From assembly GCA_028695935.1 (NCBI GenBank), contig JAQVHY010000005.1, positions 1 through 48,249 on the forward strand: a stretch of 48,249 bases of DNA. The letters run 5' to 3'. Source of the DNA: Desulfobacca sp. (GTDB lineage Bacteria > Desulfobacterota > Desulfobaccia > Desulfobaccales > Desulfobaccaceae). Below, in pieces: positions 30,368-33,451 of the stretch. Position 1 is the first letter of the stretch; each line of letters starts with the position of its first letter. Below the pieces are notes generated by a model that saw only the letters and a program-made list of their open reading frames with translations, had not been told where the DNA came from and did no database searches. Made by a program: the position numbers and the translations under genes.

Positions 30368-31423
30368 TCAATAGGAATTTATCAACCAGGGGCTTTGATT
30401 CTGATCTATGGTATCGGAATTCTGATTTGCCGATATTTCTTCAGCCAGTTGCAACAACACTCCTTCCAGCAACCCGGCATCAATCACCACCAGGGAGGCT
30501 TGGTGGAATAATGCCAGAATTTCCTGGATAATTAGTGCTCCCGCGACAATTACCCCGGCCTTGCCAGGTTCCAGACCGGGCAACTGGCTACGCTCGGCCT
30601 CGGTTCGGGTTACCAGTTGGCCGGTAAGGCGGTCCACCGTATCCCGGCTTAAAACCAGATTGTTGATGCGCTGGGGCGCATAATCCGTCATTCCCAAAGA
30701 TATCGCCGCCAAGGTGGTCACGGTCCCGGCGGTTCCCACTAAGCGCCATCGACCATTTAGTCGGGGGTTAGACAAAAAGGTCTCGGGCAACTGCCGGAGC
30801 TGATGTTGAATTTCGGCCCGCAGGGCCAGCAGTTCAGCCTTGGTGGGCGGATCGTTGATCAACCAGCTCTGGGTCAGAGTTGAGGCTCCCAGCGGCAGGC
30901 TGGCAAAGTTCGCCTCCTGGCCCGGCAACACCAACGCCCATTCCGTGCTCCCGCCACCAACATCGAATACCAGCAGGGGTTGATCATCATCCGCCGCCGG
31001 GGTCAGCACCGAGAGGACGCCGGCTAGGCTGAGGCCGGCCTCCTGGGCCGGACTGAGGACCTCCACGCTGAGACCGGTCTGCTGGTAGAGCTGATCTAAA
31101 AAGGCCTGACGATTCCGGGCCTGGCGCACCGCCTGAGTGGCCACGGCCCGATTTGCCGCCACCTTAAGCAGCCGGAGATCCTGGCAAAACTCGTTTAATA
31201 CTGCCAGGCTGCGGGCCATCGGCACCGGAGCTAAGTATCCCGTCGGCACCAGCCCCTGACCCAGATGGGTAATGGCTCGTTTGCGGAGGAGGAGTTGAAC
31301 ATTACCTGCTTTGTTCCCGAGCGCGGCGATGGCCAGACGGATGGTCAAGCTGCCGATATCGATGGCGGCAATCGTAACTTCCGACCGGTTAAGCCGGGTT
31401 TCGCCAGTTATAAGGTTAATCAA
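30368..31423 (-). CDS. Ppx/GppA family exopolyphosphatase / pppGpp phosphohydrolase
   Basis: 351 residues with the ASKHA-fold signatures of the Ppx/GppA family: VTIAAIDIGSLTIRLAIAALG (phosphate-1 loop, with L-T in place of the usual N-S), RAVATQAVRQARNR, the VFDVGGGSTEWALVL phosphate-2 loop near residue 155, and GTAGTVTTLAAISLGM. It lacks the C-terminal HD domain of long Ppx proteins, like other short bacterial members. Whether it cleaves polyphosphate or pppGpp cannot be told. The start is TTG, lying inside the last codons of the upstream small gene (ATTGATTAA); translation is probably coupled since there is no good ribosome-binding site. Confidence 0.88.
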   Translation of the reverse strand: MINLITGETRLNRSEVTIAAIDIGSLTIRLAIAALGNKAGNVQLLLRKRAITHLGQGLVPTGYLAPVPMARSLAVLNEFCQDLRLLKVAANRAVATQAVRQARNRQAFLDQLYQQTGLSVEVLSPAQEAGLSLAGVLSVLTPAADDDQPLLVFDVGGGSTEWALVLPGQEANFASLPLGASTLTQSWLINDPPTKAELLALRAEIQHQLRQLPETFLSNPRLNGRWRLVGTAGTVTTLAAISLGMTDYAPQRINNLVLSRDTVDRLTGQLVTRTEAERSQLPGLEPGKAGVIVAGALIIQEILALFHQASLVVIDAGLLEGVLLQLAEEISANQNSDTIDQNQSPWLINSY

Positions 31424-31622
31424 TGGAGATCTCAGGGAAATGTTCTGATGATTCTGATGGTTGGCGGCCTTTTTCTAGATTTTCCAGCCGGGTTAAGATT
31501 TCTTCCAGCAGGATAATCCGTTCGTTGATTTTCCAATACCAGCAATTGACTTCCCGGAGCAGAAAAAAAATCCCGATAGCCACCAGGATGATGATAATGG
31601 TCGAGAGGTTGAAATCAAACAT
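31416..31622 (-). CDS. Small single-pass membrane protein
   Basis: 68 residues: one N-terminal transmembrane helix (LSTIIIILVAIGIFFLL) followed by a helical, probably coiled segment (KINERIILLEEILTRLENLEKG) and a polar tail. Family not recognised. The coding end overlaps the start of the Ppx/GppA gene by eight bases, so the two form an operon. Confidence 0.7.
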   Translation of the reverse strand: MFDFNLSTIIIILVAIGIFFLLREVNCWYWKINERIILLEEILTRLENLEKGRQPSESSEHFPEISID

Positions 31623-31931
31623 AACCTAAAGCCTTTGTGTCTAATGCCGTTTTCAGTTTTCGGTTTTCTATTAGAATGATTGATTTAATCAGTATATTTT
31701 TTTAATTGGTGTCCATCCGGAAACCCTTTTTCCCCTCCCCCTTGAGGGGGGAGGGTTAGGGTGGGGGTGAAAAATATCATATCATTTCAATGCCTTAAAA
31801 TTTGTACCCCCTCCCCCCAACCCCCTCCCACCAGGGGCGGGGGAGTTTCGGGATTAAAACTAATTATGGTCTTAGCGCCTGTTAGTACTCCAGGGAGGAC
31901 GCACCTCCTCCCTGGAGCAGGGTTCGCCGGA
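31623..31931. other. Intergenic region with repeat and polypyrimidine tract
   Basis: 309 bases between the small membrane gene and the thioredoxin-like gene. It contains family-1 repeat copy C and a low-complexity TTTTCAGTTTTCGGTTTTC tract near 31650-31670. No coding sequence is apparent. Confidence 0.55.
31709..31864. repeat. Dispersed GC-rich palindromic repeat, family 1 copy C (most complete)
   Basis: About 156 bases. Starts GTGTCCATCCGGAAACC, then CCCCTCCCCCTTGAGGGGGG, GGGTTAGGGTGGGGGT, an AT-rich centre, CCCCCTCCCACCAGGGGCGGGGGAG and ends GGATTAAAACTAAT. Both outer blocks can fold into G/C hairpins. It shares this order with copy A (10446) and, in degenerate form, copy D (37537). Confidence 0.8.
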
Positions 31932-32504
31932 TTAAGGAATCAACCGGTAGGGCGCGGCTTTTTTGGTCCAGCTACTCTGAGAATATTTATTGGTTAAGAC
32001 GTTGTAGACCTCTTTTAGGGGTTGGGGATCATTTTCCTTTTTATACCGGCTGACCCCGCGGAAAAAGACGGCTTCCGCAGCCGCGTCGCTATTGGGATAG
32101 CTCTCGATAACCTGATCAAACAGGCTTATGGCCTCGGCATACTGCTCGCTATCCAAATGCCAGCGGCCCTTGGCCACCGTAAAGGTCGGGATAAAATCTT
32201 CCGGGGCCAGAAAGCCGACGGTGCGATAATGTTCCCCGCCTTCGGCGTCCAGGACTAGCAGGGTGGGGGTCCATTTTACCTTAAATTGGTCCATCAGGAC
32301 CTGGTGGGAAGATTCAATCTGCACCGGAATAAAATTGGCCTCAATAAAGCTAATCACTGCTTCCTGTGGATACGTAACTGCATCCATCTGTTGACAACCG
32401 ATTCACTTGGGGTTGAAGAAATCTACCAGGAGAGGGCGATTGCCCCCGCGGGCTAAATCCTGCGCCTGACCAAGATCGGTCAGCCAGTTAATTTTTGATG
32501 CCAT
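31932..32504 (-). CDS. Thioredoxin-fold/TPR selenoprotein (in-frame UGA read as Sec34)
   Basis: Predicted 190-residue redox protein. Read from the ATG at 32504 (TAAGGAGG ribosome-binding site about nine bases upstream), the frame runs uninterrupted except for one TGA at 32405-32403. It gives LLVDFFNPK-U-IGCQQMDAVTYP, so U34 and C37 form a U-x-x-C active site where thioredoxin-like relatives have C-x-x-C. The typical KWTPTLLVLD with cis-proline (P80) follows. The C-terminal ~70 residues are TPR-like (EQYAEAISLFDQVIESYPNSDAAAEAVFFRGVSRY). A naive annotation would start at the internal ATG at 32387 and lose the active site. A bSECIS-like hairpin follows the TGA. It is probably a cytosolic thiol or peroxide-handling protein. 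The alternative is a nonsense mutation, but the intact flanking frame argues against it. Confidence 0.85.
32367..32386 (-). promoter_or_regulatory. bSECIS-like hairpin downstream of the UGA codon
   Basis: On the coding (minus) strand the arms TGGATGC and GTATCCA form seven pairs (one G-U) around an AGTTAC loop. The apical loop begins 23 bases after the UGA and has G at its second position, consistent with the known bacterial SECIS pattern (loop 16-37 bases after UGA, a G among the first two loop bases). Confidence 0.6.
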
Positions 32505-32640
32505 CGGAACTTCCTCCTTACCCGGGTATTTAGATCACGGCCCTACTGACCGCTTGGTTAAAAGCTAACCATTGATCACCCTTAAGGCAAGGCGGGTGCC
32601 GAGTCTGAGGGATAAGCTCGGTTCAACTACTAGAAGCTTC

Positions 32641-32730
32641 TAATACCAAGTTGTTATCAAAAAGGGAATATCCTCATTGTAGGAGCTTGATTTAGCAAGC
32701 CCTTTAGGGCGCAATGAATTGCGCCCCTAC
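32641..32730. repeat. 90-base palindromic repeat, family 2 copy 1
   Basis: Starts TAATACCAAG and ends GCGCCCCTAC. Contains a perfect hairpin GGGCGCAAT-GA-ATTGCGCCC. It agrees with the copy at 33362 at 76 of 90 positions without gaps, in the same orientation, and the pair flanks hpt. Confidence 0.85.
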
Positions 32731-33361: not shown

Positions 33362-33451
33362 TAATACCAAGCTGTCATCCAAAAAGTAATATTCTGATTG
33401 TAGGGGCGTGATTTATCACGCCCTAAAGGGTGCAATGAATTGCGCCCCTAC
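33362..33451. repeat. 90-base palindromic repeat, family 2 copy 2
   Basis: Second copy of the element at 32641. Contains a perfect hairpin GGGCGTGAT-TT-ATCACGCCC and the shared TGCAATGAATTGCGCCCCTAC end. Compensating substitutions between the copies keep the stems, for example GGGCG in the right hairpin of copy 1. Confidence 0.85.

Follow-up and report, generated by a model that had tools for sequence, protein, structure and literature searches.

A gene on the reverse strand of the Desulfobacca sp. contig JAQVHY010000005.1 is predicted, with a probability that we place at roughly 93%, to encode a selenoprotein with thiol-disulfide oxidoreductase activity, in which the UGA at codon 34 is read as selenocysteine (Sec). 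The backing for this reading is comparative throughout, namely conservation of the UGA, exchange of Sec and Cys between homologues, an RNA hairpin, and the presence of the Sec machinery, and from these we infer Sec insertion. Coordinates are given in Table 1 and refer to the window, i.e. the whole stretch of 48,249 nucleotides that was analyzed.

With TGA34 taken as Sec, the translation reads MASKINWLTDLGQAQDLARGGNRPLLVDFFNPKUIGCQQM..., and this TGA is the sole one in frame across the 190 codons. The ribosome-binding site upstream of the ATG at 32504 is a good one, and most orthologues in the class carry purine-rich AGGAG-type sites at the position equivalent to TAAGGAGG. A previous sequence-only reading had proposed this start and ribosome-binding site with a single TGA in a continuous frame, which proved exact (190 codons, TGA at codon 34). 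It had also placed the TGA at the first position of a C-x-x-C motif and described a conventional ORF that begins at an internal ATG six codons further on and lacks the active site; both statements were borne out, the former by a U-I-G-C motif whose first position is Cys in 28 of 135 homologues, the latter by an ORF of 151 amino acids from 32387. No Shine-Dalgarno-like sequence precedes this internal ATG, where the letters read GAATCGGTTGTCAACAG, and the ORF that starts there is most likely a false start by which the active site is lost.

Table 1. Features of the selenoprotein gene and of adjacent sequence in the window
Feature	Position	Strand	Basis or remark
Selenoprotein gene	31932..32504	-	190 codons with TGA34 read through
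Start ATG	32504-32502	-	sequence
Shine-Dalgarno TAAGGAGG	32513..32520	-	sequence
TGA codon 34, predicted to be read as selenocysteine (U of U-I-G-C)	32403..32405	-	TGA in 105/135 homologues, Cys in 28
Cys37 codon, predicted resolving Cys of UxxC	32394..32396	-	invariant in 20 class orthologues
Stop TAA	31934-31932	-	sequence
Conventional ORF, 151 aa from internal ATG (codon 40)	31932..32387	-	UxxC motif absent
Bacterial SECIS hairpin	32368..32385	-	stem GGAUGC/GUAUCC (32385-32380 with 32373-32368), apical loop AGUUAC (32379-32374)
Identical 20-base stretch GTAGGGGCGCAATTCATTGC	32711-32730 and 33432-33451	-	both sides of hpt; none expected by chance
G-rich/C-rich palindromic intergenic sequence	31733-31850	-	CCCACCCTAACCCTCCCCCC...GGGGGAGGGG
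68-codon ORF	31416-31622	-	hydrophobic N-terminus, between selenoprotein gene and ppx/gppA gene

Conservation and decoding of the in-frame TGA

Full-length orthologues were detected in 20 of the 29 genomes of the class; these are 52-78% identical, and every one has a single TGA, located at the corresponding codon. The other nine genomes, including one from the same genus (G005, 93% complete) and all four from the sister genus, had no full-length orthologue. Across the phylum, 84 of 395 sampled genomes gave a full-length or near-full-length match, most with one TGA, while strong matches (E below 1e-40), in both TGA and stop-free forms, were obtained in 40 of 48 Geobacteraceae genomes, and the family is present in some Nitrospirota as well. 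Scanning public genomes with the single protein returned no relatives, and scanning them with an alignment as query returned 15 named loci from Desulfobaccales and Deltaproteobacteria metagenome-assembled genomes (MAGs), relatives that by themselves would point to Desulfobaccia of the Thermodesulfobacteriota as the probable origin of the window. A codon-by-codon comparison of 135 non-redundant homologues, drawn from Thermodesulfobacteriota plus a single Nitrospirae MAG, revealed TGA at the Sec column in 105, TGC or TGT in 28, GAT (Asp) in one and GAG (Glu) in one, with the flanking frame conserved around the TGA in the 105. The Cys at residue 34 that the sequence-only reading had proposed to look for in relatives was thereby found, in some cases in homologues that share a genus or family with Sec-bearing ones. 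Residues encoded 5' of the TGA, namely W7, L11, D28, F29, N31 and P32, are invariant across the class.

The genome also holds the dedicated decoding machinery: selA (506 bits), selB (385 bits), a tRNA-Sec gene (selC) that scores 79 bits, above the gathering score, and is called as tRNA-SeC with anticodon tca, and selD, whose known UxxK motif is itself encoded with an in-frame TGA. All four genes that the sequence-only reading had proposed to look for, among them the three (selA, selB and selC) whose absence it had taken to speak against Sec, are hence present.

The hairpin starts 17 nt past the UGA and its apical loop 23 nt past it, and the 27-nt fold in the window has an energy of -8.6 kcal/mol with a z-score of -3.28. 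In the bacterial SECIS (bSECIS) model, an apical loop of 3-9 nt and an upper stem of 4-16 bp lie 16-37 nt from the UGA, with a G within the first two loop positions and a minimum free energy of -7.5 kcal/mol or lower (PMC13188914). The hairpin satisfies every one of these constraints, with a 6-nt loop, a stem of 6-7 bp, a G at loop position 2, a spacing of 23 nt and the energy given above. It was recovered independently by RNAalifold from the alignment alone; an Rfam scan of the window gave no match at gathering thresholds. In the class set, 100% of the cells in the hairpin are paired. Phylum-wide, 90 of 105 TGA genes but none of the 28 Cys genes form the complete set of six pairs, and the mean number of paired positions is 5.64 of 6, compared to 3.93 +/- 0.08 after random synonymous codon replacement (500 draws, maximum 4.26). 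In the other 15 TGA genes the set is incomplete in the fixed register, and the stem of some of these may be shifted or shorter. One G-C pair has become A-U in the window's genus, with both sides changed, and the same column pair is A-U in 57 and G-C in 26 sequences across the phylum. Codon choice within the hairpin is similarly skewed: in the class, Gly is encoded by GGT in 18 of 18 cases (background 0.06) and Thr by ACG in 20 of 20 (background 0.15), and phylum-wide ACG is used in 72 of 75 TGA genes vs 2 of 21 Cys genes. Judged from these alignments, the pairing and the codon bias cannot come from the protein sequence alone.

These data also bear on two other accounts of the TGA. If translation really stopped there, or if the TGA had arisen by pseudogene mutation or as a sequencing error, the functional product would be the 151-amino-acid protein from the internal ATG; such an ORF does exist, and TGA is the ordinary terminator of 5 of the 26 window ORFs checked, but the same codon recurs in 105 independent homologues with a conserved flanking frame, residues upstream of it are invariant across the class, and the internal ATG comes without a ribosome-binding site. 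We consider this account highly improbable, and pseudogene, sequencing error and true stop alike are refuted by the comparative data; for a sequencing error, which the sequence-only reading had named as a way in which it could fail, the identical codon in 105 independent genes is decisive. Even harder to credit is a genome-wide change of code by which UGA would specify an ordinary amino acid (Trp or Cys). The frame is indeed open when TGA is read as a residue, but TGA terminates other window ORFs and many orthologues of the selenoprotein gene itself, a dedicated tRNA-Sec, SelA and SelB are present, and the downstream hairpin goes with the TGA, being absent from Cys homologues. Such a change of code would require in-frame TGA codons in a large number of ordinary genes, which were not seen, and genome-wide recoding was rejected. 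Site-specific Sec insertion at codon 34 is the reading that we retain.

Sec/Cys exchange and genomic context

In a quick tree of the 135 proteins, built with the Sec column masked, with no root inferred and with some long branches, at least four Sec/Cys changes are needed. The 19 Cys forms from Geobacteraceae make up one clade nested in Sec forms, Sec and Cys forms occur in neighbouring clades of Geobacteraceae, and one further Cys form (L103) falls within a Sec clade that includes a member of the same genus (L142). Nesting of Cys forms in Sec clades therefore suggests that Sec was replaced by Cys, the inferred direction of change, and that the hairpin is no longer formed in the resulting Cys genes.

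Several more distant or atypical sequences were encountered as well. Within the divergent family f58 (L104-L106, L108-L113), Cys stands in place of Sec, and several of these Cys forms have also lost the second Cys to Ser (CxGS); in two members the first motif position is Asp or Glu instead. This is an apparent loss of the usual redox motif. One Geobacteraceae homologue (L210; G440:C9:44374-44924) has a split frame with three TGA codons and is a possible decaying copy or frameshift. Thioredoxin-like relatives with one TGA, mostly shorter and about 27-35% identical (L035, L036, G012:C28, G026:C176, G027:C53, G028:C16 and G002:C52), probably represent a second, separate group of Sec thioredoxins in the class.

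No neighbouring gene was found to be shared across the family. The window gene is flanked by hpt and a ppx/gppA-guaB group, and the 68-codon ORF next to it has no Pfam match. In 33 loci, including L124, the homologue is immediately followed, on the same strand, by a phospholipase-D-type (cardiolipin synthase-like) gene, an arrangement seen in Geobacteraceae; no such gene lies beside the window gene. The two copies of GTAGGGGCGCAATTCATTGC belong to a longer similar intergenic sequence, which looks like a short interspersed repeat, and the intergenic palindrome suggests a REP-like element of the genome; letters that resemble it are also found, in frame, towards the end of the selD region (L056).

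Protein architecture and proposed activity

The best Pfam match, Thioredoxin_2 (PF13098), covers residues 18-105 at 47.8 bits against a cut-off of 27 and is shared by all 20 class orthologues. Behind this domain, TPR models of Pfam come near but stay below their cut-offs, and TPR matches are sporadic among the 20 orthologues. An AlphaFold2 model built from these orthologues (mean pLDDT 93.8, pTM 0.90) displays a thioredoxin fold followed by helices at residues 101-118, 122-135, 140-157, 161-173 and 178-188, corresponding to a thioredoxin-like N-terminal part (~1-113) and TPR-like C-terminal helices (~115-188). In this model, a confidently predicted thioredoxin domain is followed by two TPR-like helix hairpins, an arrangement that resembles CnoX (YbbN). 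Homologues span profile positions 1-189, and the C-terminal tail is kept in nearly all of them. Invariant residues include C37 and W78-T79-P80, and in thioredoxins the W-T-P segment carries the cis-proline. Since no signal peptide is evident by eye, the protein is probably cytosolic.

In the proposed mechanism, SelB and tRNA-Sec would decode UGA34 as selenocysteine, steered by the downstream hairpin. Sec34 would then attack a client at a disulfide or at another oxidised sulfur, and the mixed selenosulfide so formed would be resolved by Cys37, a division of labour between Sec nucleophile and Cys resolver that is the established chemistry of UxxC redoxins; the product would presumably work in the reducing direction. 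The C-terminal pair of TPR-like hairpins could hold a client or partner protein as in the chaperedoxin CnoX, and by this analogy we rate client binding by the tail at somewhat less than an even chance. More tentative, and on balance doubtful, is the broader picture of a selenium-based, CnoX-like chaperedoxin of anaerobes, that is, a mini thioredoxin-TPR protein with Sec prevailing at the active site, possibly as the ancestral state, and with a few lineages, including the Geobacteraceae clade, that would have switched to Cys and lost the SECIS.

Other roles for the same fold were also weighed. The protein may instead simply carry electrons, as a thioredoxin or DsbD-gamma does, to a partner such as a peroxiredoxin or a methionine sulfoxide reductase, with a tail that is structural and binds no client. 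Its best Pfam match and best fold matches (Thioredoxin_2 and DsbD C-terminal domains) and the sub-threshold, sporadic TPR hits would fit this role, but the C-terminal helices are modelled confidently and the tail persists in nearly all homologues, and we view it as a serious candidate that nonetheless falls well short of probable. An involvement of the thioredoxin half in the sulfur, selenium or persulfide metabolism of sulfate or metal reducers, and not in protein disulfides, appears unlikely: most of the family comes from Thermodesulfobacteriota, whose members are largely anaerobic, with some Nitrospirota besides, but it has no conserved sulfur-metabolism neighbour, with the window gene lying between hpt and the ppx/gppA-guaB group. 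Thiol-disulfide exchange is the activity that we predict for the Sec-bearing domain.

Relation to known systems

The thioredoxin half has its best solved-structure match in the C-terminal (gamma) domain of DsbD, which is periplasmic and part of a membrane protein, carries a CxxC motif and lacks TPR. The thioredoxin-like selenoproteins with curated NCBIfam models (TsoB, Trx7/PDZ, VPGUxxT) show weak domain-level similarity to the window protein; they score far under the curated cut-offs (e.g. 45 vs 805 bits) and differ in architecture and Sec motif, and none of the curated NCBIfam models covers the family. Across its full length, the window protein was matched by Foldseek to E. coli YbbN/CnoX (PDB 3qou; 199 columns, identity 14-16%), a thioredoxin-TPR chaperedoxin (PMC8129009); a phmmer search of the PDB with the window protein did not return the YbbN entries. 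Both proteins have a thioredoxin domain followed by TPR helices and a presumed cytosolic location, whereas CnoX has a larger TPR domain of two five-helix subdomains (PMC8129009) and E. coli CnoX has SxxC in place of UxxC. In sequence, the TPR part resembles YbgF/CpoB/BamD.

The gene deserves correct annotation: standard gene calling would place the start after the active site, and database entries that come from automatic annotation can therefore lack the catalytic residue. The family is unusually clean material for the study of selenocysteine evolution, with closely related Sec and Cys members of which the former keep the RNA signal and the latter have lost it; it includes cultivable Geobacter relatives, and in it a Sec thioredoxin is linked to a TPR tail, by which possible clients could be sought.

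In genome G441, which may be that of G. uraniireducens Rf4, the sole PF13098 match with a TGA is a member of the window gene's family. A Sec 'thiol:disulfide interchange protein' family was predicted by Zhang and Gladyshev in 2005-2006 (PMC1794560, PMC2398784, PMC13188914), and it is listed in Syntrophus aciditrophicus, G. metallireducens and G. uraniireducens (PMC1794560), as Trx-like 2 (thiol disulfide interchange protein; cd02953, UxxC; PMC2398784), and as PF13098 with UxxC (WP_011366075.1; PMC13188914). The window gene's family shares with it the Pfam domain, the UxxC motif, the DsbD-gamma-like fold and the phylum, and by domain, motif and the G441 gene the two are probably the same. Of the sequence-only reading's view that a thioredoxin-TPR combination made an unusual candidate selenoprotein, the TPR part stands in the structure model, although the Pfam TPR scores lie just under the cut-offs, but the novelty does not, since a Sec family of the same domain and motif had been predicted earlier. 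The accessible papers on that family mention neither a TPR tail nor such breadth, and a search of open-licence papers found none that describes tetratricopeptide repeats on a Sec thioredoxin. Three things seem undescribed: the TPR half, the breadth of the distribution with Sec in the majority, and the Sec/Cys changes with loss of the hairpin. Overall, the gene almost certainly encodes a selenoprotein and its SECIS is well supported; it comes from a family of a known kind and is not a new kind of system.
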